From the NCBI GenBank assembly GCA_945870205.1, contig CAMBRI010000010.1:1-42731 (forward strand): DNA of 42,731 nucleotides, written 5' to 3'. The position numbers and the translations under genes were made by a program. Below, piece after piece: positions 16,309 through 37,205 of the stretch. How positions within the stretch are numbered: position 1 is the stretch's first letter; each line of letters opens with the position of its first letter. Below the pieces are notes generated by a model. It saw only the letters and a program-made list of their open reading frames with translations, ran no database searches and was not told where the DNA came from. This DNA comes from Sulfuritalea hydrogenivorans sk43H. Lineage in GTDB: Bacteria; Pseudomonadota; Gammaproteobacteria; Burkholderiales; Rhodocyclaceae.

Positions 16309-17676
16309 TCATGGGATGAGCCTGCCATCCGTCGCCAACAATTCCTTCGCCAGCAATTCCTGCGCCTGCACTTCGCGCGGCAGCGCCTCGACCGGACCCA
16401 GATCGGGGATCTCCTTGTCGTCACCGGCCACTTTCAGGTCGCGAAACTTGCGCGCCGACACCAGCACTCGGGTTTCCATCGAGGCCACCGACTTGTTGTA
16501 GGCGCCGACCGCCTCGCCCAGGTTCTTGCCGACGCGGCTCCAGTGTTCGGCAACGGTGGCGATGCGCTCGTACAACTCGCGTCCGAGCAGGCTGATGCGT
16601 TCGGCGTTTTCGGTCAGGGCCTGTTGCGTCCAGCCGTAGGCGACGGCGCGCAACAGGGCGATCAGGGTGGTCGGCGTGGCGAGGATCACCCGCGCATCGA
16701 CGCCGGCCTCGATCAGCGAGGGGTCGGCTTCCAGCGCGGCCGAGTAGAACATCTCGCCGGGCAGGAACAGCACGACGAAATCGGGCGAGGGCTGGAACTG
16801 CTCCCAGTAGGACTTCTGGCCGAGCTTCTTCAGGTGATCGCGAACCTGCCGCGCGTGGTCGGCCAGCTTGCGCTTCTTCTCGTTCTCGTCGGTGGCTTCC
16901 AGAGCCTCCAGGTAGGCCGCCAGCGGCGCCTTGGCATCGACCACGATGTTCTTTCCGCCGGGCAACTTGACGATCATGTCGGGGCGCAGCCGCCCTTCTT
17001 CGGTGTTGGTGCTTTCCTGCTCGAAGAAGTCGCAGTGATCGAGCATGCCTGCCATTTCGACCACGCGCTTGAGTTGTAGCTCGCCCCAGCGGCCGCGGGT
17101 TTGCGGCGCGCGCAGGGCCTTGACCAGGTTCCCGGTTTCCTGCCGCAGTTCGCCTTGCGCCTCGGCCATGGCGCGCACCTGCTCGGAGAGCGTGGCATAG
17201 GCGTCGATGCGGGTTTTTTCGATGCCCAGGATTTGCAGTTCGAACTTTTCCAGCGAGGTCCTGACCGGCGCCACCAGTTCACCGATGGCCAGTTGGCGCT
17301 TGTCGAGATCGGTCCGGGCCGACGCCAACGCCGCGGCCTGCTGCGCCTCCAGCGTGGCGCGGGCAAGTTCGAGGAAGGACTGGTTGTTCTTCGCCAGGGC
17401 ATCGGCCGAAATCACCTTGAAGGCATCCGCGAAGCTGTCGCGCGCCGCCTCAAGCGTGGCCTGTCGCTCGGCGAACAGCACCTGATCTTTTTCCAGTTCG
17501 GTGGCAAGCTGGGCACAGCGTATCGCCAGCGCCGATTCCCGGGTGCGCAGGGTAGCCAGTTCGGTTTCGCTCTGCTCAAACCGGAGTCTGGCCTCACGCA
17601 CGCGCGCCGCAAACACCAGTGCCACCAGCCCGCCGCCGAGCAGTAGGCCGACCAGCAGTGCAATGCTCATTTCCAT
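16309..17676 (-). CDS. rmuC: DNA recombination protein RmuC
   Basis: A 455-residue protein. An N-terminal membrane anchor (SIALLVGLLLGGGLVALVFAA) is followed by a long coiled coil (residues 25-190) and the RmuC nuclease-like core: RGRWGELQLKRVVEMAGML, GGKNIVVDAKAPLAAYLEAL, and SPDFVVLFLPGEMFYSAALEADPSLIEAG. RmuC limits inversion at short inverted repeats in E. coli and carries a PD-(D/E)XK-like fold. The ATG at 17676 is preceded by GGCGGAAGATCAC; the internal ATG two codons on is less well placed. The next gene on the strand is the 38-residue membrane peptide. Confidence 0.95.
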   Translation of the reverse strand: MEMSIALLVGLLLGGGLVALVFAARVREARLRFEQSETELATLRTRESALAIRCAQLATELEKDQVLFAERQATLEAARDSFADAFKVISADALAKNNQSFLELARATLEAQQAAALASARTDLDKRQLAIGELVAPVRTSLEKFELQILGIEKTRIDAYATLSEQVRAMAEAQGELRQETGNLVKALRAPQTRGRWGELQLKRVVEMAGMLDHCDFFEQESTNTEEGRLRPDMIVKLPGGKNIVVDAKAPLAAYLEALEATDENEKKRKLADHARQVRDHLKKLGQKSYWEQFQPSPDFVVLFLPGEMFYSAALEADPSLIEAGVDARVILATPTTLIALLRAVAYGWTQQALTENAERISLLGRELYERIATVAEHWSRVGKNLGEAVGAYNKSVASMETRVLVSARKFRDLKVAGDDKEIPDLGPVEALPREVQAQELLAKELLATDGRLIP

Positions 17677-21935: not shown

Positions 21936-23978
21936 TCAACCAGCCATCATCTGCAGGCCGCCCAGGCCCAGCCGCAGAGCACCGGCGACCAGCAGGGCGA
22001 CGCCCACCGACAAGCCTACCGAAAACAGGGCATCCCGCCGTCCGATGGTTCTCAGCATGACCGCGAAGGTGGACACGCAGGGAATGTAGAAGGTGATGAA
22101 CAACAACAGGGTGATTATCTGCGCTGCATCGAGCAGGGTGCCGATTTCCTGGGTACCCAGCGCCTGGTAAATCATCAGCAGGGAGAGCTCCTTGCGCAAC
22201 ACGCCGAACAGCAGCGGAACGCCCAGCGCCAGCGGCAGGCCCAGCCACCAGACGGTCACCGGCATCAGCAGGGTATTGATCAGGCTGTCCGCACCCAGGT
22301 GGGTGAACAGGGCCAACACCACGCTCCCACCCACCAGCAAGGGCGTGACGATGGTCAGGATGTCGCTGGTGCGAGCCCAGGTCTCGGAAAACAGGGTGCG
22401 CCAGGTCGGCAGCGCATAGTCGGGGATCTCCTGCACCTGCCCGGGGCCGAGCTCACGCTTGCTGCGCGACAGCAGGCGGCCGATGACGGCGATGACGATC
22501 AGGGTCAACGCAAAAATGCCGAACACGCCGACGGCGCCAAGATACTTGCCGGCAATGGCGAGGATGATGGCGGAACGCGCCGAACAGGGCACGAAAGTGA
22601 TCAGCACCGACGCCAGCACGCGTTCGCGCCCGCTGGTGGCCCTGGCGGCGCCGGAAATCGCCGGCACATTGCAGCCCAGGCCAAGCAGAAAAGGCACGGC
22701 CACGCCGCCGTGCAGCCCGATCTGGTGAAAGCCGCGATCGACGACGAAGGCAATGCGCTGCATCAGGCCCGCCTGCTCCAGGCTCACCAGCAGCATGACC
22801 AGTGGAATCATGTAGGGCACCACGATGCCGGTCAGGCCGATCAGGCCGTCGAGCACCGCGCGGGCCACCACGCCGCCGGTTGCTTGCGGCTGCCAGTCCG
22901 CGAATGCCGCGGCGAGGCGTACCGTGGTCATGGAATCGATCCAGCCGCTGATCTCGAACACCACGAACAGCACGGCAGCGAACACGGCGAGGCTGCCGAT
23001 CAGGCCCCATTGCGGATGCAGGAACAGTTCATCGAGCCAGTAGCGCCAGCCGTGACCATGCGCGGCCGACCCCATGCGCTGCGCCGCCTCGACCACCGTA
23101 GCGGCACGGTGATGGCGATCGGCATGCAGTTCGTCGGCCAGCGGTCGCGGCAGGGTCAGGCCGGCGGCATCGCGCAGCGCCAGGAATTCGGGCAGCAGCA
23201 GCGGGAAATGCTGGCGCAGTTCGTCGTCGACAAAGCCATCGGCGGCGGCGAACTGCATCAGCAGAAAGGGGTGCGGCACGCGGAACGCCGCGTGAAGTTC
23301 GGGGCGATTCATCGCTGTTGTCAGCGCCTGAAGGCTTTGCACAATGTGCGGACTGGGGGGTTGCGGCAAAGGACAGGTCGACTCGCGCGCGGCATTTACG
23401 GCCGCGCCAAAGAGTTGCGCAACACCCTGCCCCATCATCGCCACCGTCGGCACCACGGGCATCCCCAGCAGACTGGTCAGCGCCCGGACGTTGATATAGA
23501 GGCCTTTCCTGGCGGCCTCGTCCATGTGGTTCAGCGCCAGCACCATGGGCCGCCGGAGCTGGCTCAATTCCAGGGTCAGCTCGAAATGGCTTTGCAGATT
23601 GGTGGCGTCGACCACCTGGATGATCAGGTCGGGCGGCGCGAAAGGCGCGGGCGGGCCTGATTGTTCATGCACCGACACGGGTGGCCGCTGGTCGCCCCAC
23701 AGCAAATATTTCAAGGCGGAAAGGTCATCGCCCTCGAGATGATGCAGACAATGAATGCTCGGCAGGTCGACCACACTGGCTTCGTCGAAGCCGATCTGCA
23801 CCGTACACTCGCGATAGCTGCGATGCGTGCCGGCCAGTTCCCCCTGTTGTGGCGACGTACTCGATACGGCATCGAACAGTGTGGTCTTGCCGCCGCCGGG
23901 CAGGCCGACGAGGGCGATGCGCAGGCGCCGCTCACCGCGAAACAGCGGAGTGCGCAGGGGTACGGAAATCTCAGTCAC
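21936..23978 (-). CDS. FeoB-like GTPase/permease
   Basis: A 680-residue protein: an N-terminal G domain, then a multi-helix permease. G1 is GLPGGGKTT (25-33) and G4 is NHMD (150-153). The G3 DxxG motif is altered to DLPS (71-74), where FeoB normally has DLPG. The permease keeps both FeoB gate motifs, LLGLGCNVPAI (Cys436) and VPCSARSAII (Cys465). Family members pump Fe2+ across the inner membrane. Compared with E. coli FeoB (773 residues) it is shorter, and no feoA or feoC lies in the window. The GTG start at 23978 follows the TGA of the upstream DUF294 gene with no spacer, so it is co-transcribed with a signalling operon. The cargo is unproven. Confidence 0.85.
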   Translation of the reverse strand: MTEISVPLRTPLFRGERRLRIALVGLPGGGKTTLFDAVSSTSPQQGELAGTHRSYRECTVQIGFDEASVVDLPSIHCLHHLEGDDLSALKYLLWGDQRPPVSVHEQSGPPAPFAPPDLIIQVVDATNLQSHFELTLELSQLRRPMVLALNHMDEAARKGLYINVRALTSLLGMPVVPTVAMMGQGVAQLFGAAVNAARESTCPLPQPPSPHIVQSLQALTTAMNRPELHAAFRVPHPFLLMQFAAADGFVDDELRQHFPLLLPEFLALRDAAGLTLPRPLADELHADRHHRAATVVEAAQRMGSAAHGHGWRYWLDELFLHPQWGLIGSLAVFAAVLFVVFEISGWIDSMTTVRLAAAFADWQPQATGGVVARAVLDGLIGLTGIVVPYMIPLVMLLVSLEQAGLMQRIAFVVDRGFHQIGLHGGVAVPFLLGLGCNVPAISGAARATSGRERVLASVLITFVPCSARSAIILAIAGKYLGAVGVFGIFALTLIVIAVIGRLLSRSKRELGPGQVQEIPDYALPTWRTLFSETWARTSDILTIVTPLLVGGSVVLALFTHLGADSLINTLLMPVTVWWLGLPLALGVPLLFGVLRKELSLLMIYQALGTQEIGTLLDAAQIITLLLFITFYIPCVSTFAVMLRTIGRRDALFSVGLSVGVALLVAGALRLGLGGLQMMAG

Positions 23979-25868
23979 TCAGAGCCGGTACTCGAGTTGC
24001 AGCCGCGACTGCAGGCGCTTGGCCTGCTTGAAGGCTTCCTTCAGCACATGGCGATCGAGTTCGTTGAGCTTGTCCGGATTAACGCGGTTCTCGCCGCCCG
24101 GTGGCGTGCCGGCACGCTGGTTGCGCAGGCGTAGCTGCTGGATAAAGAAGAAGCCCTCGATCACCGCATTGATGTCGTCGCCGCCCAGCTTGCCCTGCGC
24201 GGCCGCCATGCGCAGGCGCTCCGTGGTGCTGCTGTGAGGGATGCGGTGGGCCAGCGCGATGATGCGCGCCGCATCGACGATGGGCCTCGCACCAAAAGCC
24301 TTGAGGTCGAGCGTATGCGGAAATTCGGCATTGTTGTCAAACACGAAGTCGCGAATCATGCCCAGCGGGGGAGTCGCCTTCACGGCGTTTTCGGCCATGA
24401 AGCGCAGGAATACCTTGGCATTGCCGCTCATGTCCAGCAGCCACTTGCGCAGGGACTTGGCCAGCGCATCGTTGCCATACAGGGGACGGAAGTCGAAGAA
24501 GATCGTGGCGTTGAGCAAGGCCTCCGGCTCGGGCAGGCGGATCCACTGCGTGAAGCGCTCCTGCCATTCGTCCTGGGTCAGGCACCATAGCGGGTTACTG
24601 GCCATGATGTTGCCCTTGCACAGCGGAAAACCGCAGCGCGCCAGGCCTTCATTGACCTCGCGCGCGAAATCCAGAAAGCGCAGTTGCAGCGCATCGCGGT
24701 CGGCAAAATCGGGGCAGATAAAGATGATACCGTTGTCCTGATCGGTGCTGAAGGTCTGCTCGTCGCGCCCTTCGGAACCGAACGCCAGCCAGGCCCAGTC
24801 GAGCCCGAACAGGTCGTGCCGGGCCAGGGTGATTTCGATCACGCGGCGCGTCAGGCTGTCGTTGAGGCCGGAAATGAACTGGGTCAGCTTTTCGGCGCTG
24901 ACGCCCTGGCCCAGCATGTTGAGGCACAGGCGGCGCACGTCGCCCGCGGCGTGACTCAGGGTATCGATGTCCTTCGCCACGGCGATCACCTTGCGCACGC
25001 TGCGCAGGCCGACGCGCTGCATGGCAAACAGGTCGCGCTCGGACACGACACCCGCCAGGCGGTCTTCGGCGTCGACCAGCACCAGGTGGCGGATGCCATG
25101 CGTGGCCATGACCAACATGGCGTCATAGGCCGTGGCACTTGCCGCGAGGGTCGCCGGCGGGCTGGTCATCACTTCCTCGATCGGCGCCGAGGTCGGGTAG
25201 TTCGGACTGACCACGCGGCGCATCGCATCCGACTGGGTGAAAATACCCAAGGGAAAGTTGTCGGCATCAGCCACCACCACCGAGCCGACCTTGGCCTCTA
25301 CCATGGTCTCCATGGTTTCGCGTATCGTGGTCTGCGGCGCAACGCGCACCACATTGGGCCGCAGGAAACCTGAAAGCTGCGCGTTGAGTGTCTGCTGATC
25401 GGCATTGCGCTGGCCGAACTGGGTTTCGATCTGCCGCCGCGCCTCGTCGAGCAAACCGGCCACATGGTCGAGCACGAAACGATTGAATTCGCAACTGCCC
25501 AGCAGCAGCCTGAAAAAATCGGCGCTGCCCAGGCGCCAGACCTGCGCCTCCCCCACGGCGGTATAGACGTTGATCGCGGGTCGCTTGGCGGCCACCGCGG
25601 CGAGCGGAAAGCTCTGCCCAGGTTCCAGTTCATACAGGGGCTGGTCGGTCAGGTTCACATCGCCCGCAAGCCGGGCCTGGACCTTGCCGGATTGAATGAT
25701 GAACAGGTCCGGCGGCACGTCGCCCGGCGTCAGGATGAAGCCACCGTCTGGCACCTCGACGCGGATCAGGCTGGCGGCCAGGGCGTCGAGGGCAAAAGCG
25801 CCCATGTCCCTGAACGGTGAATGCTTGCGCAGGAAAGCGAGGAGTTCCTCGCGGGATTCAGAAGCCAT
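23979..25868 (-). CDS. cNMP-binding/CBS/DUF294 nucleotidyltransferase-like protein
   Basis: A 629-residue cytosolic signalling protein. Domain order is a cyclic-nucleotide-binding fold (about 15-135), paired CBS domains (about 165-290; ETMVEAKVGSVVVAD and HGIRHLVLVDAEDRLAGVVSERDL), a DUF294 nucleotidyltransferase core and the DUF294 C-terminal helical domain. The core has GSEGRDEQTFSTDQDNG at 364-380, with metal-binding Asp376 and Asp378, as in GlnD uridylyltransferases. It therefore probably transfers a nucleotide to, or removes it from, a protein partner in response to a bound nucleotide; the partner is unknown. It follows a shorter paralog by 18 bases and abuts the FeoB-like gene. Similar proteins sit near acs/actP clusters in other proteobacteria. 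Confidence 0.9.
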   Translation of the reverse strand: MASESREELLAFLRKHSPFRDMGAFALDALAASLIRVEVPDGGFILTPGDVPPDLFIIQSGKVQARLAGDVNLTDQPLYELEPGQSFPLAAVAAKRPAINVYTAVGEAQVWRLGSADFFRLLLGSCEFNRFVLDHVAGLLDEARRQIETQFGQRNADQQTLNAQLSGFLRPNVVRVAPQTTIRETMETMVEAKVGSVVVADADNFPLGIFTQSDAMRRVVSPNYPTSAPIEEVMTSPPATLAASATAYDAMLVMATHGIRHLVLVDAEDRLAGVVSERDLFAMQRVGLRSVRKVIAVAKDIDTLSHAAGDVRRLCLNMLGQGVSAEKLTQFISGLNDSLTRRVIEITLARHDLFGLDWAWLAFGSEGRDEQTFSTDQDNGIIFICPDFADRDALQLRFLDFAREVNEGLARCGFPLCKGNIMASNPLWCLTQDEWQERFTQWIRLPEPEALLNATIFFDFRPLYGNDALAKSLRKWLLDMSGNAKVFLRFMAENAVKATPPLGMIRDFVFDNNAEFPHTLDLKAFGARPIVDAARIIALAHRIPHSSTTERLRMAAAQGKLGGDDINAVIEGFFFIQQLRLRNQRAGTPPGGENRVNPDKLNELDRHVLKEAFKQAKRLQSRLQLEYRL

Positions 25869-25886
25869 GTGTTGTTGCCTCGTAGA

Positions 25887-26957
25887 TCATGATTCGATAT
25901 GAAAGCGCACTTTCAGCTTTTGCTGCAGGGCACGGGCCTGGCGCAGGGCTTCCAGCAGCAGGCGCCGATCGAATTCGTTGAGCCGCTCCGGATCGACCAG
26001 GTTTCCCGCAACAACCGCCCCGCTCCGGTCGCCCGTCTGCACCGCCAGGCGAATGTCCTGCAAGGCGTGGAAGGCATGGACCGCCGCCTCGGCGTCGGCT
26101 GCCGTCATGCCCCCCATCTGCGCAACCCGTCGCAGTCGCGGCGCGGTACCCGTCTCGTCGCTGCCGGCACCCAGCGCCATGATGCGTGCCGCATCGACAA
26201 AAATACGCGAGCCGAATTTTTTCAGATCGATGGTCCCGCCGGATTCGGCGGCAAGGTTGAAATCGCGCAGGCGTCCCAGCGGCGGCGAGGCGGCCAGGGC
26301 ATTGACGCTCATCATGCGCAGGAATATTTCATTGCCGCGGGTGAGTTCCGCCAGGGCGCGGCGCAACTCGGCCGCCAGCCCGGCGTCACCGGCCAGCGCG
26401 CTAAAATCGAAGAAGATGGCGGCGTTGAGCAAGGCCTCGGGCTCCGGCGTGCGCACCCAGCCGGAAAAGTTCTCCGTCCATTCGGCCAGGGAAAGGCACC
26501 AGCGCGGATTGCCGGCCATGACCTCCCCGTCGCACAAGGCAAAGCCACACTCGGCCAGCGCCTGATTCGCGGCGCTGGCGAACGGCAGGAACAAGGCACG
26601 CAACTGACGCGCCTCGCCGTCATCACTGGCGGAGAACACCAGGCCATTGTCCTGATCGGTGCAGAGGGTCTGCTCCAGACGCCCTTCGGAACCCAGACCC
26701 AGCCAGCACCAGCGCGCCGCCGGCAAGCGAAAGCGCGACTGCAGCAGGCTCAGGACTCGGACGCCAACGGCATCGTTGAGACGCGACAGGACTCGCGTCA
26801 CAAGCGCTGCGCCGGCTTCCTCTTGATGCAAGGCCGCAGCCAGCTGGCGCACCTCGGCGGCAGACGCCACCAGCGTGGCGATGTCGGGGGCCTTGCCGAT
26901 GGCGGCACCACAGGCCGCAATGGCGGCGCTGTGCGGCAGGATTTCGTTGTCGCTCAT
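25887..26957 (-). CDS. DUF294 nucleotidyltransferase-like protein, short paralog
   Basis: A 356-residue protein homologous to the C-terminal half of the adjacent 629-residue protein, without its cNMP and CBS domains. The core reads GLGSEGRLEQTLCTDQDNGLVF, with Asp101 and Asp103, against GSEGRDEQTFSTDQDNG in the paralog. It is followed by matching blocks (MAGNPRWCLSLAEW, PEPEALLNAAIFFDF, FVDAARIMAL, LNEFDRRLLLEALRQARALQQKL). The catalytic aspartates are intact. Start ATG at 26957, two bases after the exonuclease stop; 18 bases then separate it from the longer paralog. The pair looks like a tandem duplication with loss or gain of the sensor half. The target is unknown. Confidence 0.9.
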   Translation of the reverse strand: MSDNEILPHSAAIAACGAAIGKAPDIATLVASAAEVRQLAAALHQEEAGAALVTRVLSRLNDAVGVRVLSLLQSRFRLPAARWCWLGLGSEGRLEQTLCTDQDNGLVFSASDDGEARQLRALFLPFASAANQALAECGFALCDGEVMAGNPRWCLSLAEWTENFSGWVRTPEPEALLNAAIFFDFSALAGDAGLAAELRRALAELTRGNEIFLRMMSVNALAASPPLGRLRDFNLAAESGGTIDLKKFGSRIFVDAARIMALGAGSDETGTAPRLRRVAQMGGMTAADAEAAVHAFHALQDIRLAVQTGDRSGAVVAGNLVDPERLNEFDRRLLLEALRQARALQQKLKVRFHIES

Positions 26958-26959
26958 GC

Positions 26960-29170
26960 TCAGTATTTGACGCGGGCGAACCAGGTCTTCTGCGCCGCAT
27001 CCAGCGCCTGGCGCAGAGTCAGGATGCCCATGTCGGCCAGTAGCGGAATCATCTTGAGGAACACTTCGCCAGTGACATAGGCATCGCCCAGCGCGGTGTG
27101 GCGGCCAATGACGTTGATGCCAAGACGCTCGGCGATGCTTTCCAGCCGGTGCGATTCCTGGTTGGGGTGGATCACCGCCGACAGCAGCAGCGTGTCCAGC
27201 ACCGGCTGGGTGAAGCGCACGCCGAGGATGTCTTCCTTCAGCTGGAAGAAGCGCATGTCAAACGCGGCATTGTGCGCCACCAGCACGGTCTCGGCACAAA
27301 ATTCGTGGAAGGCCGGCAGCACCACATCGAGTCGCGGCTGGCCGTTGACCATGGCCTCGGTGATGCCGTGGATCGGGATGCCTTCGGGCTTGAGCGGGAT
27401 CACCGGATCGACCAGTTGGTCGAAGATCTCCTGCCGCAGCAGGCGATTGTTCACAATGCGCACGGCGCCCATCTGGATGATCTCGTCGCCTTCGGAGGGC
27501 AGCAGGCCCGTGGTCTCGGTATCGAACACGGAATACACCAGATCGGTCAAGCGGCGATCGAGGTCGATGCCGGAACCTTCGGCGTCACGCGCCGCGAACA
27601 GGTCGAAATCATAATATTCCGGTCGGCTGTCGCTGTGCAGATGCTGCGCCTGATCGACCACCTGCAGGTCGGGCATGGTCGCCGCCGGCAACACGATGCG
27701 AAAGAAGGCGTTGTGCGCCGCCTTGTCGCGCTGGTACCAGATCTCGCCGCCATGGCGGTCGATGACGTCGCGCAGCGTCAGCGGGCTGGTCTCCGCACCG
27801 ATATTCATCGGTTCCAGTTCCCAGGTGTAGAGCGTCTCCGATGACACCGGCGTACCCGACCAGATCAGATCGACGAACACCATCTTGCCCTCAGCCGAAA
27901 GGCGCAGGCGCAATTCGCGGATCTCGTAGTGATCCTGCAGCCGCGAGGCGAGGAAGGTAATGGCCTGGATCAGGGCAAAGCTGTCGACCCGCATCCACAG
28001 CGTCGCATCCTGCTCTTCGTTCTTGATCGGCAGTTTCAGCCGGTCTTCGATGCGTCGCGTCGCGGCGGCAATGATGTCGATACCCAGCACGTCTTCCAGC
28101 GGCCAGCGTGTTTTCAGCGAATCGGCAAAGCGGCTCATGGTGGTTTCGAGCCGCTGGCTCATGAGCGATGCCTCGTCGGCGATCACGCGCATGAATCGCT
28201 CGCGGTAGTCGCCCTCCATGTCGGGCGAATCGATCAGCGTCTCGACCGCGGCTCGGATGTTGCCCAAGGCCGCCCGATTGCCGTCGGTCAGCGATTGCAG
28301 CGCCTGATCGCGCTCCGCCTCGCGTTCGAAGTTGCGCGTGATGTTTTCTATCGTGAGCACATAGCCGGTGACGTGGGGTTCGGCGCCGATCGGGTTCACG
28401 GCACTCTCCTCGCCCGTCGTCTCGGTGCGCCCGAGCACCGGTGCCATCTGGGCACGCAGGAGCTGGCCGCCCCTTGTCGCGGTAATGAAATTCGCCGTCG
28501 GCTCGGCGCTGCCCTTCCTCAGCCGCTGCTGGATGTTCTCCAGCGAATGGGTGATCTGTCCGCGTTCGAGGATGGAAAAAATAGATCGTCCGAGCCCGAT
28601 CAGCGCACCGCCGCTCATCGACGTCGGGCCCTGCGCCAAGGCCTTGAACTGCAGACGGGCGCGACTGTTGTAAAGCAGGATGCGGCCATCGAGGTTGCAT
28701 ACCACGACACCCAGCGCCAGTTCCGACATCAGGGCGGCCAGCCGGTTTTTTTCCTCTTCCACCGTGGCCTTGGCCTGCCTGATCTGCGCGTCGACATCGT
28801 TGAGCAATTCGTCGCGCTGCTGCGCCAGGTCGTTGGCCGCGCGCGCCAGTTCGCGCACTTCGGGCGGGCCTTCGGGCGCCACGCGAAAATTGCGGTTGGC
28901 GCCCAGCATCAGGCGCAGGGTCTCGGCCATGCGCAACAGTCCATGAACATACTGCTGGAACAAGCTGCGCAGCAGAACCACGCCGGCGATGAATCCCATC
29001 AGGGTCATCAGGCCGCCCAGCGGCAGGCGCGGCAGGAGGAATTCGGCAAAGGCGGCGCGTTCGGCATCCTTGGCGTCGGCGAACAGCAGCAGCGCCGTTA
29101 GCGCAAACGGCCCGGTCATCAGCAGGCCCAGCACGCAGGCCGCGAGGATGAAACGCAACTTCGCCTTCAT
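26960..29170 (-). CDS. membrane HAMP/PAS pseudokinase fused to DEDDh exonuclease
   Basis: A 736-residue inner-membrane protein. Two helices (about 6-30 and 50-70) precede a HAMP-like segment, a coiled coil and a PAS region (145-280). A histidine-kinase-shaped block (290-495) lacks the phospho-acceptor His (LGNIRAAVETL at the HisKA site) and the N-box Asn (ALIQAITFLASRL). The C-terminal 545-736 is a DnaQ-type 3'-5' exonuclease with a complete DEDDh set: Asp550 and Glu552 (DTETTG), Asp638 (AHNAAFDMRF), His691 and Asp696 (HTALGDAY). The ATG at 29170 is one base past the receiver stop; an earlier in-frame start would overlap that gene. The kinase half probably senses and regulates; the tail should cut RNA or DNA ends. 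The substrate is unknown. Confidence 0.88.
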   Translation of the reverse strand: MKAKLRFILAACVLGLLMTGPFALTALLLFADAKDAERAAFAEFLLPRLPLGGLMTLMGFIAGVVLLRSLFQQYVHGLLRMAETLRLMLGANRNFRVAPEGPPEVRELARAANDLAQQRDELLNDVDAQIRQAKATVEEEKNRLAALMSELALGVVVCNLDGRILLYNSRARLQFKALAQGPTSMSGGALIGLGRSIFSILERGQITHSLENIQQRLRKGSAEPTANFITATRGGQLLRAQMAPVLGRTETTGEESAVNPIGAEPHVTGYVLTIENITRNFEREAERDQALQSLTDGNRAALGNIRAAVETLIDSPDMEGDYRERFMRVIADEASLMSQRLETTMSRFADSLKTRWPLEDVLGIDIIAAATRRIEDRLKLPIKNEEQDATLWMRVDSFALIQAITFLASRLQDHYEIRELRLRLSAEGKMVFVDLIWSGTPVSSETLYTWELEPMNIGAETSPLTLRDVIDRHGGEIWYQRDKAAHNAFFRIVLPAATMPDLQVVDQAQHLHSDSRPEYYDFDLFAARDAEGSGIDLDRRLTDLVYSVFDTETTGLLPSEGDEIIQMGAVRIVNNRLLRQEIFDQLVDPVIPLKPEGIPIHGITEAMVNGQPRLDVVLPAFHEFCAETVLVAHNAAFDMRFFQLKEDILGVRFTQPVLDTLLLSAVIHPNQESHRLESIAERLGINVIGRHTALGDAYVTGEVFLKMIPLLADMGILTLRQALDAAQKTWFARVKY

Positions 29171-29171
29171 G

Positions 29172-29537
29172 TCATGCCAGCAGGGACTTGATCTGCAGGA
29201 CAAGATCCTTGGTCGAGAACGGCTTGGTGATATAGGAATCGGCGCCGAGCGCCAGGCCCTTGGTCACTTCGGTTTCGCGACCCTTTGCGGTGAGCATGAT
29301 GATTTTCATACCGGCCCGGGCCGGATCGGCGCGCAAGGCCTCGCAGACCTCGAAACCCGACTTCTTCGGCATCATCACGTCGAGCAGGATCAGGTCCGGA
29401 GCAAACTCGGCAGCCAGTTGCAGGGCCGCCTCGCCATCGGTCGCGATGGCGATCTCAAAGCCTTCCTTCTTCATCAGATACTCAAGCGAAATCACGATGT
29501 TCGGCTCGTCATCGACGATCAGGATGCGATGGCTCAC
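29172..29537 (-). CDS. single-domain response regulator (CheY-like)
   Basis: A 121-residue receiver with no output domain. The acidic pair is VDDEP, the phospho-acceptor Asp is in LLDVMMP, the switch Thr is in MLTAKG and the conserved Lys is in ITKPF. The GTG start at 29537 overlaps the TGA of the upstream kinase gene (GTGA) and is preceded by AGGGAGAAG. In Pseudomonas and Vibrio the CrbS kinase partner CrbR is a longer LuxR-type regulator; here no DNA-binding domain is attached, so the receiver must act by protein contact, perhaps on the fused pseudokinase encoded one base further on. Confidence 0.95.
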   Translation of the reverse strand: MSHRILIVDDEPNIVISLEYLMKKEGFEIAIATDGEAALQLAAEFAPDLILLDVMMPKKSGFEVCEALRADPARAGMKIIMLTAKGRETEVTKGLALGADSYITKPFSTKDLVLQIKSLLA

Positions 29538-32386
29538 GTAGCTTCTCCCTGCAACTTGTTATGTCCCCAGCTTTTGCTGGGGACGGTATCCCCTTGTGGG
29601 GTATGTCCCCAGCTTTTGCTGGGGACGGTATCCCCTTGTGGGATTCCGCCATTATCGCCCGACTGTCTGGGCAGTGTGAACACAAAGCACGCGCCGGCAC
29701 CTGGAGTGCTTTCGACCCATAGCCGGCCGTTGAAATACTCGATGATCTGGCGGCTGATGGGCAGCCCGAGTCCGGTACCCTGCGGCTTGTCCGTCAATAC
29801 GTCGGTAGTGCCCGTGCCCTGGCGGAACTTGTCGAAAATGACCTCCTGGTCGTCTACGTGTATGCCGGGGCCATTGTCGGTAACACTCACACGCACTTCG
29901 GTGACCGTACCTCCGGCGCCGACCGTCACGCGCCCACTGTCCGCCGGCACGAACTTGAGCGCGTTCGAGAGCAGATTGACCATTACCTGCATCAGGCGGT
30001 CACGATCGGCCATTACCGTGAGGCCGGCCGCGCCGGCGTCGAGTTCCAGCACCACCCGCTTCTCGACGAACAGTGCGGTCAGCGAATCGGACGCCTCGCG
30101 GATGACTTCCGCGACATCGACGGCCGCCACCGTCCATTCGGCGCGACCCGACTCGAGCTTGGCCAGGTCGAGGATCTGGTTGATCAGCCGCGACAGGCGC
30201 ACCGTCTCGCTGACGATAATGCCCAGAAAACGCGAGCGCTGCGCGAGATCAGTCTTGGGATCCTCCTGCAGCATCTCCGAAAATGCCCGGATCGAGGTCA
30301 GCGGTGTGCGCAATTCGTGGGTCACGGTGGAGATGAAGTCGTCCTTCATGCGATCCAGTTCCTGCAGGCGGGCATTGGCCTCGCGCAGTTCCGCCGTGGC
30401 TCGCGTCAGTTCCAGCGACTTTTGTTCGAGTTCACGCGTGTAGGCGCGCACCTGGGAGGCCTCGTCGAGGATGTTCATCACCTCATCGATGCCCAGCGGC
30501 TCTTCGGTCACCACCGAGGCCACCATCGCGCGCGCCGAGGCAGAGCCGATGGCACCGGCCAGCAGGGTTTCAGAGAAATTGACCAGGCGTGTATCGGCGG
30601 GAAGTTCCTGGATCGAGTGCAGACCGCGCTGCCGCGCATGACGCAGGAATGCTTCCTCGGCACGCTCGCGGCCGAGGAAACGACTGGCCAGGGGCAGCAG
30701 GTCGTTCAGCCCGGCGCTGCCTCGCCAACCGGGTATGCCTGCCGCCTCGGCGCCGCCGACGAACAGCGTCGCCTGGCGCGCCTCGCGCACATTCGGCGTG
30801 CGCTGCAGTGAAACACCAATGTAGGCACCGAGGTTCGCCAGCAGGCTCCACACCAGGCAGTGGGTGATCTCGTCAAGCCCGCTAAGGCCGAACAGGTGCT
30901 GCGGACGCAGGAGTTCGATGCCGAACAGGCCGTGGGCGATGAATCCGTCAGGCAGCCAGCCCGACTTGGCGAAGGACGGCAGCAACAGCGTATAGGCCCA
31001 CAGCACGAATCCAAACGCGAGTCCCGCCAGCGCGCCGTCGCGCGTGCCACCTTTCCAGAACAGGCCGCCGATCACCACCGGCGCAAACTGCGCGACAGCG
31101 GCAAAGGAAATAAGCCCGATCGAGACCAGCGCATAGGCTTCGCCCGCCACCCGAAAATACAGGTAGCCAAGGCCGAGGATCACGGCGATGGCCCAGCGTC
31201 GGATTTCCAGCAGCAGGCCGGAGAGATCGGCGCGTGCCGCCAACCCTAGTACCGGCAGACGCAGCAGCGCCGGCATCACCAGATCGTTGCAGACCATGGT
31301 CGACAGCGCGATGGTTTCGACGATGACCATGCCCGTCGCCGCCGACAGGCCGCCGATGTACACGAACAGCGCCAGTGCCTCGTGCTGATGGGCCATCGGC
31401 AGGGTCAGGACGAAGGTATCGGCGTCGACCCCGGCGCCCTGAAAATGCAGCATGCCGGCCAGCGCCACCGGCAGCACGAAAAGGTTGATCAGGAACAAAT
31501 AGAGCGGAAACAGCCACACCGCGCGACGCAAATGGCTCTCATCTACGTTTTCCACCACGGCAATCTGGAACTGGCGCGGCAGCAGCAGCGCGGCGAACAT
31601 CGACAGGAAGATCAGCGTGCCCCAGGTGCCGTAAGCCGCCGGAGTGTCCGCGGTGGCGAGACGACGGGCAACGTCGGGCACCGCCGCCGCCCGCGCAAAG
31701 ATGTCACCGATGCCATCGTGTATGCCCCAGACGACGAAGATGCCGACCGCCAGAAAGGCGGCAAGCTTGACCACCGACTCGACCGCAATGGCCGCCACCA
31801 TGCCTTCGTGGCGTTCCGTGGCGTCCAGGTGACGGGTACCGAAAAGGATGGTGAAAGCGGCCAGGATCATTGCCACGTAGAGCGCGCTGTCCTGCATCAG
31901 CGGCACGGCACCGGCCTTGGCCGGCATGATGATTTCCGGATAGCTGGCCAGAATCGCGAAACTGTTCGATACCGCCTTGAGTTGCAGGGCGATGTAGGGA
32001 ATCACGCCGACCACGGCGATCACCGTCACCAGGCCGCCGAGCAACTGGCTCTTGCCATACCGTGAGGCGACGAAGTCAGCGATCGAGGTGATGCGGTTGG
32101 CCTTGGCCACACGGATCATCTTGTGCAGGATGAAGCCGGCCAGCGCGAACAGCAGGGTCGGGCCCAGGTAAATCGGCAGGAAACCGATGCCGCTGGCCGC
32201 GGCGCGGCCGACGCTGCCATAGAAGGTCCAGGTCGTGCAATACACGCCCAGCGAAAGCGCATACACCACCGGATTGGCAATCAGCGAGCGCCCCGTATCG
32301 GCACGCCGGTCGGCATACCAGGCGATGGCGAACAGCACCCCCAGGTAGAGGAAGGAAGCGAGAACGATTACCCAGCCTTGCAGCAT
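29534..32386 (-). CDS. SSS-transporter / STAC / histidine kinase (CrbS/CbrA type)
   Basis: A 950-residue membrane sensor kinase. The N-terminal 530 residues are a sodium:solute symporter fold of 12-13 helices. A STAC-type linker (about 555-625), a coiled coil and HisKA follow, with His690 in VTHELRTPLTSI. HATPase_c has the N-box LLSNALKF near 806, DNGPG at 837 and GTGLGL near 870. Family members couple transport or binding of small carboxylates, amino acids or acetate to control of genes such as acs. ATG at 32386, one base after the small membrane gene. The last ~37 residues (914-950) are not family sequence but a translated 42-bp DNA repeat (GDTVPSKSWGH twice), ending in a GTGA overlap with the receiver gene. 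Confidence 0.92.
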   Translation of the reverse strand: MLQGWVIVLASFLYLGVLFAIAWYADRRADTGRSLIANPVVYALSLGVYCTTWTFYGSVGRAAASGIGFLPIYLGPTLLFALAGFILHKMIRVAKANRITSIADFVASRYGKSQLLGGLVTVIAVVGVIPYIALQLKAVSNSFAILASYPEIIMPAKAGAVPLMQDSALYVAMILAAFTILFGTRHLDATERHEGMVAAIAVESVVKLAAFLAVGIFVVWGIHDGIGDIFARAAAVPDVARRLATADTPAAYGTWGTLIFLSMFAALLLPRQFQIAVVENVDESHLRRAVWLFPLYLFLINLFVLPVALAGMLHFQGAGVDADTFVLTLPMAHQHEALALFVYIGGLSAATGMVIVETIALSTMVCNDLVMPALLRLPVLGLAARADLSGLLLEIRRWAIAVILGLGYLYFRVAGEAYALVSIGLISFAAVAQFAPVVIGGLFWKGGTRDGALAGLAFGFVLWAYTLLLPSFAKSGWLPDGFIAHGLFGIELLRPQHLFGLSGLDEITHCLVWSLLANLGAYIGVSLQRTPNVREARQATLFVGGAEAAGIPGWRGSAGLNDLLPLASRFLGRERAEEAFLRHARQRGLHSIQELPADTRLVNFSETLLAGAIGSASARAMVASVVTEEPLGIDEVMNILDEASQVRAYTRELEQKSLELTRATAELREANARLQELDRMKDDFISTVTHELRTPLTSIRAFSEMLQEDPKTDLAQRSRFLGIIVSETVRLSRLINQILDLAKLESGRAEWTVAAVDVAEVIREASDSLTALFVEKRVVLELDAGAAGLTVMADRDRLMQVMVNLLSNALKFVPADSGRVTVGAGGTVTEVRVSVTDNGPGIHVDDQEVIFDKFRQGTGTTDVLTDKPQGTGLGLPISRQIIEYFNGRLWVESTPGAGACFVFTLPRQSGDNGGIPQGDTVPSKSWGHTPQGDTVPSKSWGHNKLQGEAT
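29560..29642. repeat. two tandem copies of a 42-bp REP-like element
   Basis: Units at 29560-29601 and 29602-29642 are identical over 41 bases. Each contains a nine-pair hairpin, GTCCCCAGC / GCTGGGGAC with a TTTT loop (29563-29584 in unit 1), and a second small CCCC/GGGG stem. The 42-bp period keeps frame and encodes a 14-residue unit at the kinase C-terminus. Confidence 0.9.
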
Positions 32387-32387
32387 C

Positions 32388-32588
32388 TCAGTCTTTCTTG
32401 CCTTCGACGACCCAGGCCATCTGCGCGATGAGCGCCAGCCAGGAAGCCATCAGCCAGGCATACAGCGGCGGCAGGCCGAAGAAATCGCCGCCACGGTTGA
32501 ACACCGACAGAAGGGGGTAGTTGAAAAAGAAGCAGCCGAGCAGGAATACGAACGCCAGGCGCTGCGCAACGAGTCGGGACCGAATCAT
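32388..32588 (-). CDS. small two-helix membrane protein preceding the symporter-kinase
   Basis: A 66-residue protein with two hydrophobic helices, LAFVFLLGCFFFNYPLLSVF and PLYAWLMASWLALIAQMAWV, and a charged tail (VEGKKD). The ATG at 32588 follows GGAGG with a seven-base spacer. It is one base upstream of the kinase gene on the same strand. Similar small proteins with an 'FNxPLL..F' first helix precede CbrA-type kinases (cbrX before cbrA in Pseudomonas), so it may be a subunit or accessory of the symporter domain. Earlier in-frame starts lack a ribosome site. The family assignment is by pattern and position. Confidence 0.75.
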   Translation of the reverse strand: MIRSRLVAQRLAFVFLLGCFFFNYPLLSVFNRGGDFFGLPPLYAWLMASWLALIAQMAWVVEGKKD

Positions 32589-32690: not shown

Positions 32691-32693
32691 ATA

Positions 32694-32727
32694 AAAAAAG
32701 CGCCCGTCTTGCGAGGGGCGCTTTTTT
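32694..32727. terminator. bidirectional rho-independent terminator after acs
   Basis: AAAAAAGCGCCC and GGGCGCTTTTTT form a 12-pair dyad with a 10-base loop; the A- and T-runs give a U-tail on both strands. It starts 16 bases after the acs stop (minus strand) and lies 105 bases before the small membrane gene that opens the next operon, so the signalling operon likely has its own promoter. Confidence 0.9.
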
Positions 32728-32742
32728 CTCCATTTTCAAGCG

Positions 32743-34725
32743 TCAGGCGTTCTGTTTCAGCTGATCCAGAATTCCCGGGTTCTCGAGCGTGGACACATCC
32801 TGGGTGATCTCTTCGTTCTTCGCCAGGCTGCGCAGCAGGCGACGCATGATCTTGCCGGAACGTGTCTTGGGCAGGTTCTCGCCGAAACGGATGTCTTTCG
32901 GTTTGGCGATCGGACCGATTTCCTTGGCGACCCAGTTACGCAGGTCGGCGGCGATTTTCTTTGCCTCTTCCGCGCTGGGACGCGACTGCTTGAGCACGAC
33001 GAAGGCACAGATCGCCTCGCCGGTCAGGTCATCGGGACGACCGACCACGGCGGCTTCCGCCACCAGCGGGTTCGATACCAGCGCGGACTCGATTTCCATC
33101 GTGCCCATGCGGTGACCGGAGACGTTCAGCACGTCATCGATGCGACCCATGATGGTGAAGTAACCGGTCTTGGCATCGCGCATCGCGCCGTCACCGGCGA
33201 GGTACAGATTGCCGCCGAAATCAACCGGGAAGTAGGACTTCTTGTAGCGCTCCGGATCACCGTAAATGGTGCGGATCATGGCCGGCCAAGGCTTCTTGAC
33301 CACCAGGAAACCGCCCTTGCCCCACTCGACGTCATTGCCGGTCTCGTCGACGATCGCGGCGGCGATGCCGGGGAAGGGCAGCGTGCAGGAACCGGGAACC
33401 AGCGGCGTGACGCCGGGCAGCGGGGTGATCATGTGCCCGCCTGTCTCGGTCTGCCAGAAGGTATCCACAATGGGGCAGCGACCGCCGCCGACATTGTTGT
33501 AGTACCACATCCAGGCTTCCGGATTGATCGGTTCGCCCACCGAACCGAGGATGCGCAGACTGGTCAGGTCATAGTTCTTCGGATGCGTGGTCGGCATGTT
33601 TTCGCCGGACTTGATCAGCGAACGGATCGCCGTCGGTGCCGTGTAGAAGACGCTGACCTTGTGCGCCTGGATGGTTTTCCAGAAACGCCCGGCATCCGGG
33701 TAGGTGGGCACGCCTTCGAAGACGATCTCGGTGGCGCCGCAGGCCAGCGGGCCGTAGGTGATGTAGGTGTGGCCGGTGACCCAGCCGATGTCGGCCGTGC
33801 ACCAGAAGACATCGTCGGGCTTGATGTCGAAGGTCCACTTCATGGTCAGGATCGCGTGCAGCAGATAGCCACCCGAGCTGTGCTGCACGCCCTTCGGCTT
33901 GCCGGTGGAACCCGAGGTGTAGAGCAGAAACAGGGGATGCTCGGCATCGACCCACTCCGGTTCGCAGACGTCGGACTGGCCGGCACAGGCGTCGTCCCAC
34001 CAGATGTCGCGGCCGGCAACCATGTTGCAGGCGCCGCCAGTGCGCTTGAAAACAATGACGGATTTGATCGACTCGCAGCCACCCATAGCAATGCCATCAT
34101 CGACGGCCGGCTTGAGCGGAATGTTCTTGCCGCCGCGGCACTGCTCATCGGATGTGATGACAGCAACGGCGCCGGCATCCTGGATGCGCTCCTGCACTGA
34201 CTTGGCGGAGAAGCCGCCGAACACCACCGAGTGGATGGCGCCGATACGGGCACAGGCCTGCATCGCGATCACACCTTCAACCGACATCGGCATGTAGATC
34301 AGGACGCGATCGCCCTTCTTGATGCCTTGCGCCTTCAGCGCATTGGCAAACCTGGCGACTCGCGCCAGCAGTTCCTTGTAGGTGACCTTGCTGACCTGGC
34401 CGCCGTCAGCTTCAAAAATGATTGCGACCTTGTCGCCGAGGCCTGCTTCGATGTTGCGATCGAGGCAGTTGTAGGAGACGTTCAGCTTGCCATCGGCAAA
34501 CCACTGGTAGAAGGGGGCGTTGGACTCGTCCAGCGACTTGGTGAAGGGCTGCTTCCAACTCACGTGTTCCCGGGCCAGGCGCGCCCAGTAACCGGCGTAA
34601 TCCTGATCGGCTTCCTTGCACAGTGCCTCGTAAGCCGCCATTCCGGAAATGGTGGCCTTCTTGACCACTGCGTCGGACGGGGGAAATACACGGCTTTCCG
34701 TGACATTTGATTCGATGCTGGACAT
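32743..34725 (-). CDS. acs: acetyl-CoA synthetase (AMP-forming)
   Basis: A 660-residue cytosolic enzyme that makes acetyl-CoA from acetate, CoA and ATP, via acetyl-AMP. Family landmarks along the chain are [16 protein letters not shown] near 80, the P-loop-like [11 protein letters not shown] near 270, [30 protein letters not shown], and near the C-terminus the regulatory Lys in [10 protein letters not shown], which is acetylated by Pat/CobB systems. Its length matches E. coli Acs (652). The ATG at 34725 has AGAGGAGAGG upstream. It is transcribed alone, closed by a strong terminator, and is divergent from yqhA over 269 bases. CrbS-type kinases such as the neighbouring one control acs in other proteobacteria. 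Confidence 0.97.
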
Positions 34726-35684: not shown

Positions 35685-37205
35685 ATGACCACCATCCGCC
35701 AGGACGATTTCGTCCAGTCCATCGCCGACGCTTTCCAGTTCATCAGCTACTACCATCCGCTCGACTACATCACGGCACTCGGCGCCGCCTATGAACGCGA
35801 AGAGTCGCCCGCGGCGAAGGACGCCATTGCGCAAATACTCACCAACAGCCGCATGTCGGCCGAGGGTCACCGCCCGATCTGCCAGGACACGGGAATCGCG
35901 CTGGTCTTCCTCAAGGTCGGTATGCAGGTCCAGTGGGACGCAACGCTGTCAGTACAGGAAATGGTCAATGAAGGCGTGCGCCGCGCCTACGGCAACGCAG
36001 ACAACCCGCTGCGTGCCTCGGTGCTGGCCGATCCGGCCGGAGCGCGGCGCAACACCAAGGACAACACCCCCGCGGTGGTGCATTACGAGATCGTTTCCGG
36101 CCATCATGTCGAAGTCATCTGCGCGGCCAAGGGCGGCGGCTCGGAAGCCAAGGCCAAGTTCGCCATGCTCAACCCCTCCGACGACCTGGTCGAGTGGATC
36201 CTGAAAACCATACCGACCATGGGCGCCGGCTGGTGCCCGCCCGGCATCCTCGGCGTCGGCATCGGCGGCACGCCCGAGAAGGCCATGTTGCTGGCCAAGG
36301 AAGCCATCATGGCGCCGGTGGACATCCATGAGTTGAAAGCGCGTGGAGCCACGACACGGGCCGAAGAACTGCGCCTCGAACTGCACGAGAAGATCAATGC
36401 GCTGGGCATTGGCGCACAGGGCCTCGGCGGCCTCACCACGGTGCTTGACGTCAAGGTGCTCGACTACCCGACCCATGCCGCCAACCTGCCGGTGGCGCTG
36501 ATTCCCAACTGCGCGGCAACGCGCCACATCCATTTCCATCTCGACGGCTCCGGCCCCGCGAAGCTTGAACCGCCGAGGCTCGAAGACTGGCCCAAGGTGA
36601 CCTGGCAGGCCGACGCCGCCACCGCAACCCGGGTCGACCTCAACACATTGACCCGCGCCCAGGTCGCCGCCTGGACGCCGGGCCAGAAACTGCTGCTTAA
36701 CGGCAAGATGCTGACCGGCCGCGACGCGGCCCACAAGCGCATCGCCGACATGCTGGCGAAAGGTGAAAAGCTCCCGGTCGATTTCACCAACCGCGTCATC
36801 TACTACGTCGGCCCGGTCGATCCGGTCAGGGACGAAGTGGTCGGCCCCGCCGGCCCCACTACTGCCACGCGCATGGACAAGTTCACCCGCATGATGCTGG
36901 AGCAGACCGGCCTGATTTCCATGATCGGCAAATCCGAGCGCGGACCGACCGCGATCGAGGCGATCAAGGACAACAAATCGGCCTACCTGATGGCCGCCGG
37001 CGGCGCCGCCTATCTGGTGGCCAAGGCCATCCAGTCAGCCAAGGTGGTCGGTTTCGCCGATCTGGGCATGGAAGCGATCTACGAATTCGACGTGAAGGAC
37101 ATGCCGGTCACCGTCGCCGTCGATTCGCTGGGCACTTCGGTACATATCACCGGGCCGAAGGAATGGCAGGCGAAGATAGGCAAGATTCCGGTGAAGGTGG
37201 CCTGA
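35685..37205 (+). CDS. fumA: class I fumarate hydratase (4Fe-4S)
   Basis: A 506-residue enzyme of the oxygen-sensitive class I type, with alpha and beta parts on one chain, interconverting fumarate and malate. Motifs are GHRPICQDTGIAL (cluster Cys), AAKGGGSEAKAKFAML, PPGILGVGIGGTPEKAM, PNCAATRHIHFHLDGSG (second Cys), and the C-terminal beta half GPTTATRMDKFTRMMLEQTGL to ADLGMEAIYEF. The third cluster cysteine is in GAGWCPPG. Start ATG 35685. In related genomes fumA is often followed directly by murI; here two other genes lie between. The name fumA is used for single-chain class I enzymes and does not imply the E. coli regulation. Confidence 0.95.
   Translation: MTTIRQDDFVQSIADAFQFISYYHPLDYITALGAAYEREESPAAKDAIAQILTNSRMSAEGHRPICQDTGIALVFLKVGMQVQWDATLSVQEMVNEGVRRAYGNADNPLRASVLADPAGARRNTKDNTPAVVHYEIVSGHHVEVICAAKGGGSEAKAKFAMLNPSDDLVEWILKTIPTMGAGWCPPGILGVGIGGTPEKAMLLAKEAIMAPVDIHELKARGATTRAEELRLELHEKINALGIGAQGLGGLTTVLDVKVLDYPTHAANLPVALIPNCAATRHIHFHLDGSGPAKLEPPRLEDWPKVTWQADAATATRVDLNTLTRAQVAAWTPGQKLLLNGKMLTGRDAAHKRIADMLAKGEKLPVDFTNRVIYYVGPVDPVRDEVVGPAGPTTATRMDKFTRMMLEQTGLISMIGKSERGPTAIEAIKDNKSAYLMAAGGAAYLVAKAIQSAKVVGFADLGMEAIYEFDVKDMPVTVAVDSLGTSVHITGPKEWQAKIGKIPVKVA

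Follow-up and report, generated by a model that had tools for sequence, protein, structure and literature searches.

Organization of the Locus

The window, by which we mean the whole 42,731-nt stretch that was analyzed, is one entire contig of a draft genome that is 85% complete. Among named organisms, its nearest relatives are Sulfuritalea and further metagenome-assembled genomes of the Rhodocyclales. Seven genes on the minus strand lie beside acs (Table 1). They had been predicted to form a single operon, and when the intergenic gaps were recomputed from the coordinates (1, -4, 1, 2, 18, and 0 bases) they were identical to those predicted. Pfam domains that match the proposed identities were found in the exonuclease, the receiver, the two DUF294 proteins, and the FeoB-like gene. 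The terminator that had been proposed to separate acs from the operon was also located, as a GC stem with A and T runs; a pattern scan for terminators flagged only a plus-strand site at 32705-32720, which overlaps it. Scans with Rfam and for tRNAs gave no matches across the window.

Table 1. Features of the operon and of its boundary with acs
Feature	Coordinates	Strand	Evidence
acs, acetate-CoA ligase	32743..34725	-	TIGR02188, 973.9 bits (cut-off 724.95)
Putative intrinsic terminator, acs/operon boundary	32693..32727	-	A-run, GC stem, T-run; ViennaRNA -19.9 kcal/mol
66-aa membrane protein, first gene, CbrX-like by position and size	32388..32588	-	ATG at 32588
SLC5-type sensor histidine kinase, 950 aa, non-hybrid	29534..32386	-	PDB match and Pfam
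Free receiver (single-domain response regulator), 121 aa	29172..29537	-	Response_reg, E 3.4e-30, residues 5-116
Predicted membrane pseudokinase-exonuclease, 736 aa	26960..29170	-	ATG at 29170; AF2, Foldseek, RNase_T (E 1.4e-31)
DUF294 nucleotidyltransferase with DUF294_C, 356 aa	25887..26957	-	Pfam, 2.1e-43 and 1e-35
cNMP-CBS-CBS-DUF294-DUF294_C protein, 629 aa	23979..25868	-	Pfam
FeoB-like GTPase/permease, local addition	21936..23978	-	Pfam FeoB_N, Gate, FeoB_C

The Sensor Kinase and the Small Membrane Protein

No SSF (symporter) match was found when the kinase was searched against Pfam at E<=0.1. Residues 7-473 match PDB entry 10ed_A (E 1.2e-76), the title of which is "histidine kinase", and because of this match we assign the kinase to the symporter-like (SSS/SLC5) type, as had been predicted. 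We take 10ed_A to be CbrA, because its length and title fit the CbrA SLC5-STAC construct (PMC13022988). Between the symporter part and the kinase domains, where a STAC domain would be expected, residues 520-660 are conserved and helical; a profile of this region matched nothing in the PDB better than E 0.059. The 50 matches listed by Foldseek for the kinase model were kinase entries. Pfam HisKA and HATPase_c domains are present and a receiver domain is absent, so the kinase is non-hybrid, and H690, N804, N808, G841, G870, G872, and G874 are invariant across 41 aligned kinases.

The first gene of the operon has a good Shine-Dalgarno sequence before its ATG, and relatives of its product that were identified by tblastn precede the kinase at many loci. 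PDB matches to the protein were all at E 2.5 or worse, although the PDB as searched may not contain CbrX, the small hairpin whose gene lies directly ahead of that of CbrA (PMC13022988).

The Exonuclease and Its Kinase-Like Scaffold

An AF2 model of the exonuclease (64 sequences) had a mean pLDDT of 86.7 and a pTM of 0.44, so the relative placement of its domains is unsure. The model begins with two transmembrane (TM) helices separated by only a short turn, after which come a long helix and a PAS-like domain; a two-helix hairpin resembling a DHp, a domain resembling a CA, and a nuclease fold complete the chain. The shortness of the turn would leave no room for a periplasmic sensor. A Pfam match to PAS_4 is weak and below threshold. 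The best Foldseek matches were to WalK and other sensor kinases, and to the PolC, DinG, and epsilon exonucleases. When profiles were compared, residues 285-502 aligned with the operon's own kinase (98.4% probability).

Catalytic residues of the kinase are lost from the fusion. The position equivalent to H690, the phosphoacceptor, is His in none of 65 representatives; in the N box, Asn is found at the N804 position in none and at the N808 position in one; and the D837 (G1) position is never Asp and is Trp in 64, while G839 is retained in 62. An Arg residue is present three positions after the lost His (H+3) in 61 of the 65. The D-E-D-H-D residues of the exonuclease (D550, E552, D638, H691, and D696) are invariant in 64 rows. 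As the kinase residues are lost and the nuclease residues are invariant, the alignments and the model indicate that the protein is a pseudokinase fused to an intact-looking DEDDh (DnaQ/PolC-type) nuclease. A histidine-kinase fold that lacks the phosphoacceptor and ATP motifs is also what characterizes DivL-like pseudokinases. The outputs that had originally been named (a receiver alone, an exonuclease, and DUF294 proteins) are thus all present, but the kinase scaffold on the exonuclease had been overlooked. An exonuclease mounted on a histidine-kinase scaffold that has lost catalysis suggests a mechanism.

Distribution and Conserved Gene Order

Within the family, 73 of 91 genomes (this one included) have a match to the fusion at E<1e-170, one more carries a fragment, and 17 have none; of 59 genomes from the remainder of the order, 4 have a strong match. 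At the scale of the phylum, 51 of 398 genomes matched at E<=1e-40, and a profile search identified the fusion in 37 of 299 genomes at E<=1e-60. We assembled 64 non-redundant loci (<80% identity, with the window excluded), fetched about 9 kb on each side, and counted neighbors at the 58 loci for which at least 3.5 kb was available on both sides.

The receiver gene lies directly upstream of the exonuclease gene at 52 of the 58 loci, and this gene order is therefore beyond chance; two of the receivers counted (L073 and L126) are only 32% identical. An SLC5 kinase is encoded at 45 loci (upstream at 36 and downstream at 9), all of which also encode the receiver. The receiver is present without a nearby kinase at seven loci, one of which is this genome's second copy (L055), and the exonuclease has neither nearby at six. 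The receiver itself retains its phospho-acceptor D53 in 57 of 58 sequences and K105 in all 58. DUF294 genes were found at 40 loci (short and longer types were counted together at distant loci) and acs at 33.

The arrangement of these genes varies. Many Rhodocyclaceae have the order acs-small-kinase-REC-exo-DUF294, Cupriavidus necator C39 has small-kinase-REC-exo-DUF294-acs, Paracoccus denitrificans PD1222 has DUF294-small-kinase-REC-exo, and Marivivens has acs-DUF4212-symporter-DUF294-x-REC-exo. The order REC-exo-kinase was found both in other classes of the phylum and, within the class, in other orders, and SAR324 has kinase-REC-exo. The core is thus kept well past close relatives, in other classes and in SAR324, so the limited synteny that had been named as a refutation of the proposal was not what the loci showed, and the proposal of a signaling unit near acs that has no DNA-binding output in its operon holds for several arrangements. 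We conclude that three proteins form the core: an SLC5 kinase, a receiver that stands alone, and an exonuclease of the TM-PAS-pseudokinase-DEDDh type. DUF294 usually accompanies them, and acs often does. Because its neighborhoods both recur and are rearranged, we regard this module firmly as a real unit.

Kinase and fusion also co-occur at the level of genomes. An SLC5 match (E<=1e-40) was found in 151 of the 299 genomes and in 33 of the 37 that carry the fusion. A close SLC5 kinase (E<1e-170) is encoded in 26 genomes; the fusion is present in 22 of these and absent from 4, whereas it is present in 15 of the 273 other genomes (Fisher p 1e-19, a statistic that ignores relatedness).

In a tree of SLC5 proteins, the module kinases fall within a broad group that includes some hybrids. 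A protein from Azoarcus KH32C with an EAL output branches among them with modest support (85/81), which suggests that outputs have been swapped. An orphan receiver of Xanthomonas is a PilH-like protein (PMC7698356), and the available text of that paper shows no connection to the module.

The Pseudokinase DHp Resembles That of the Partner Kinase

We compared the DHp regions of kinase and fusion in 39 loci that encode both. The equivalents of H, E+1, and T+4 are common to both proteins in none of these pairs, whereas the two agree at R+3 in 97%, A+11 in 82%, E+14 in 85%, R+27 in 90%, F+30 in 92%, and E+37 in 97%. Identity within a locus's own pair was 16.9 of 65 positions, compared with 16.1 for swapped pairs; this excess is larger than in all 2000 shuffles, but it is slight and could be explained by common ancestry alone.

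A profile of the pseudokinase DHp was then searched against 5,022 open frames from all fetched loci. It matched 107 of 114 SLC5-kinase frames (redundant loci included) with a median of 39.6 bits, and only 4 of 28 other kinases, the best at 15.4 bits. None of the seven SLC5 kinases that were missed lies at a locus with the fusion: five are annotated as hybrids or are long enough to be hybrids, and two are cut by the end of a locus. Non-hybrid SLC5 kinases without an adjoining exonuclease were matched as well (39.6 bits at L180 and 31.6 bits at L184). The corresponding CA profile barely matched the SLC5 kinases (median 1.8 bits, and no match for 50 of 114). We conclude from these profiles that the pseudokinase DHp resembles that of the partner kinase and not those of other kinases, and that the docking-bearing DHp appears to have been kept while the catalytic CA was lost. 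Descent of the pseudokinase from the partner kinase could equally account for this likeness, as could the formation of heterodimers between the two.

The DUF294 Proteins and the FeoB-like Gene

Among 34 aligned proteins of the longer DUF294 type, the active-site residues S365 and D378 are present in all and D376 is present in 33. These proteins thus combine the GS...DxD active site with DUF294_C, the two features expected of DUF294 nucleotidyltransferases. The pocket of cNMP-binding domains usually carries a GE..L/RxA-type motif. No such motif is evident in the consensus of the cNMP domain of the DUF294 protein, and the binding of cAMP by this domain is therefore doubtful.

The FeoB-like protein, which had been placed in the signaling unit as a permease, scores 258.7 bits against the NCBIfam feoB model, below the cut-off of 315.65, and is the sole such match within the draft genome. 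The gene is present at 23 of 25 loci from close relatives but at only one of the 58 non-redundant loci. As it is confined to close relatives, we rule it out as a member of the pathway and do not count it in the core.

Relation to Stand-Alone Exonucleases and Known Systems

Other genomes of the class encode a cNMP-CBS-DUF294 protein, a stand-alone exonuclease, and acs together, in some cases with another SLC5 kinase nearby. In a tree of the exonucleases, a branch (98/91) separates nine stand-alone proteins encoded beside DUF294/acs from the rest. The fusions are not resolved as a single clade; close to them lie an RNase T on a long branch and two short forms from Rhodobacterales. The tree thus gives no support to orthology between the fusion and these stand-alone exonucleases.

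Related proteins are known in Pseudomonas. Pflu5625 of P. fluorescens, which has cAMP-binding, CBS, and nucleotidyltransferase domains, belongs to the CrbS/R regulon, and its mutant is reported to have no phenotype (PMC5715377). We read PP_0354, a CBS protein of P. putida, as the counterpart of Pflu5625. PP_0354 forms an operon with PP_0353 (RNase_T), and ErdR binds the PP_0354 promoter (PMC9927547); from its context, PP_0353 probably belongs with the stand-alone exonucleases. Mutants of either gene are described as unimpaired on 20 mM acetate; transposon fitness data cited in the same paper, which its authors could not check, suggest a role for PP_0353 at 5 mM acetate; and growth on pyruvate is delayed in the PP_0353, mxtR, and erdR mutants. 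A part in mRNA decay is raised there as a speculation (PMC9927547). A link of such proteins to carboxylates is thus already known from Pseudomonas, where the CrbS/R targets include both an exonuclease and a CBS/nucleotidyltransferase protein. The original view of the combined pathway as undescribed therefore needs to be narrowed: the CBS-nucleotidyltransferase and RNase_T proteins are known CrbS/R (MxtR/ErdR) targets (PMC5715377, PMC9927547), but a literature search that covered few of the subscription journals found no description of the module or of a relay within it.

Several known systems resemble the module in part. CrbS/CrbR (MxtR/ErdR) of Pseudomonas and Vibrio, as reported, shares with it an SLC5 kinase, acs, a CBS/nucleotidyltransferase protein, and an RNase_T exonuclease; however, in CrbS/CrbR the kinase is a hybrid, its partner is a DNA-binding regulator of the LuxR type, and the nuclease gene is a transcriptional target, whereas the module kinase has no receiver domain, the regulator in its operon is a lone receiver, and the membrane nuclease, fused to the predicted pseudokinase, is encoded in the kinase's own operon. 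In CbrX-CbrA-CbrB of Pseudomonas, the kinase is likewise of the SLC5 type, is preceded by a small membrane protein, and is probably the one to which the 10ed_A match points, but CbrA responds to histidine and CbrB is a sigma-54 regulator (PMC13022988), and the module contains no DNA-binding regulator. RpuS/RpuR of Sinorhizobium fredii has an SLC5-type kinase and a role in monocarboxylate use; RpuR, unlike the module receiver, is a LuxR-type regulator, and the word "exonuclease" is absent from the main text of the paper on this system.

A parallel for the fusion is DivK-DivL of Caulobacter, in which a single-domain receiver is paired with a PAS-bearing pseudokinase that has an RR-docking arginine and no catalysis. 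DivL binds DivK~P through its RR-docking face and is reported to have no kinase or phosphatase activity; R553, at H+3, is needed for tight binding, which R553A weakens (PMC4211667). DivL acts on the kinase CckA, whereas the module pseudokinase bears a nuclease, and the likeness is one of sequence.

A Proposed Relay and Its Alternatives

We propose that the module may work as a DivK-DivL-like relay. The transporter-like kinase would sense a small carboxylate, most likely acetate or pyruvate, autophosphorylate, and then phosphorylate the free receiver. Once phosphorylated, the receiver would dock on the pseudokinase of the membrane-tethered exonuclease as it would on a kinase, and docking would change how active the fused 3'-5' exonuclease is, with RNA close to the membrane as its probable substrate. 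The DUF294 nucleotidyltransferases, one of which has CBS and cNMP-like sensors, would belong to the same pathway and perhaps re-add what the exonuclease removes. We favor this reading, to which we give a probability of roughly 0.5, because of the adjacency of receiver and exonuclease, the DHp likeness of the pseudokinase, the Arg at H+3, and the precedent of DivL. Counting against it are the 4 of 26 close-kinase genomes that have no exonuclease, the six of 58 loci with neither receiver nor kinase nearby and the seven with the receiver but no kinase, the finding that no single frame joins receiver and exonuclease among the loci with a receiver match, the growth of the P. putida mutants on 20 mM acetate (PMC9927547), and the placement of the stand-alone exonucleases beside DUF294 in another clade.

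The exonuclease might instead sense a signal alone through its PAS domain, and share the operon merely for carboxylate use with no direct phospho-relay. The PAS-like fold of the model and the sub-threshold PAS_4 match are consistent with this, as is the fact that some other genomes of the class carry separate DUF294 and pseudokinase-free exonuclease genes beside acs. We consider it unlikely, however, as the adjacency of receiver and exonuclease persists when the kinase is absent and the gene order is changed, and the CA domain has eroded while the DHp has been retained. Heterodimers between sensor kinases offer another model. RetS forms heterodimers with GacS and tunes it, and the pseudokinase-exonuclease could similarly tune the SLC5 kinase through DHp heterodimers while the receiver acts elsewhere. 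The specific DHp likeness fits dimerization as well as it fits docking, and kinase and fusion are both membrane proteins of one operon. Nonetheless, the receiver still adjoins the exonuclease at the seven loci without a nearby kinase, the residue at H+3 is a docking residue in DivL (PMC4211667), and the invariant nuclease active site would be left unaccounted for, all of which make heterodimer tuning quite improbable.

Two further explanations can be set against the relay. The nearest solved folds of the nuclease part (PolC and epsilon proofreading exonucleases, and DinG) would suit an enzyme that works on DNA in proofreading, repair, or the use of nutrient DNA and has no regulatory role. Yet the protein has no polymerase or helicase domain and does have a membrane anchor, a kinase scaffold, and linkage to acs, and in P. 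putida the exonuclease of the comparable pair gave no DNA-use phenotype (PMC9927547); we regard a role of this kind as very unlikely. There is similarly little to recommend the idea that control is transcriptional after all, with a distant CrbR-like regulator as the partner of the kinase and the local receiver as a phosphate sink. Although the SLC5-STAC kinases characterized so far work with DNA-binding regulators (PMC5715377, PMC9100948), the module kinase is non-hybrid and is accompanied by an intact free receiver at 45 of 58 loci.

Implications

Most well-studied two-component systems end in transcription, a receiver-fused enzyme, or motility. The module suggests a pathway that acts through the trimming of nucleic acid and not through gene switching, and a post-transcriptional output, as had been put forward, is plausible. 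More tentatively, and with considerable doubt on our part, the output may be 3'-end editing across the phylum, in which a membrane nuclease that reads the shuttling receiver through its dead kinase part (the eraser) is opposed by a nucleotide-sensing nucleotidyltransferase (the writer) so that carboxylate availability is converted into the 3'-end state or stability of RNA. From Rhodocyclaceae to Paracoccus and SAR324, a free receiver appears to control a nuclease by way of a decayed kinase. The proposed relay would help to account for the DUF294 proteins and exonucleases encoded beside acs and SLC5 sensors, among them the as yet unexplained CrbS/R targets of Pseudomonas, and it would make one function of DUF294 testable; cultured carriers of the module include Paracoccus denitrificans PD1222 and Cupriavidus necator.

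Genes Around the Signalling Operon and a Repeat Within It

The genes for a UvrD-type helicase, a PD-(D/E)XK nuclease, and RmuC, of which the first two were judged by eye to be an AddAB-like pair, are unrelated to the signalling operon. Past acs, on the opposite strand to it, lie genes for a fumarase and a dCache-HAMP-PAS sensor kinase. The final codons of the SLC5-type kinase gene contain a tandem duplication of ~42 bases, each copy of which carries a perfect hairpin (GTCCCCAGC-AAAA-GCTGGGGAC), and the core word of the duplication occurs nowhere else in the draft genome. The duplication and its hairpins may be an assembly effect, or they may form RNA hairpins inside the operon.

Coordinates of window features and comparison loci
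Feature	Location	Strand
UvrD-type helicase, PD-(D/E)XK nuclease, RmuC	window 9288-15493 and 16309-17676	minus
Tandem duplication	window 29560-29640	minus
Fumarase (Fumerase/Fumerase_C), dCache-HAMP-PAS sensor kinase	window 35685-37205 and 38225-40834	plus
Second module copy	G000:C4:33928-37522 (L055; another contig of the same genome)	
Ruegeria sp. TM1040	L153, 3775-9708	
Paracoccus ferrooxidans pFER4	L180, 4374-7634	
Azoarcus sp. KH32C plasmid	L182, 6241-9183	

Module Copies and Variants

The source genome carries a second receiver, pseudokinase-exonuclease, and CBS-DUF294 set, which lacks the SLC5 kinase and lies downstream of genes identified by eye as folK-like and panC-like. Full-length second copies, at 48-51% identity, are listed for 17 other genomes of the genus.

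In Ruegeria sp. TM1040, a DUF4212 protein, a sodium:solute symporter, a DUF294 protein, and a hypothetical protein accompany a shorter exonuclease form (479 aa), and no receiver is listed among the genes of this locus. Paracoccus ferrooxidans pFER4 encodes a free receiver, a small protein, and an SLC5 kinase; although no exonuclease adjoins these genes, this kinase matches the pseudo-DHp profile (built from the DHp-like part of the pseudokinase-exonuclease). On the Azoarcus sp. KH32C plasmid, a module-like SLC5 sensor domain lies within a protein annotated as EAL-domain, an annotation from which we read that a c-di-GMP-type output replaces the kinase relay.
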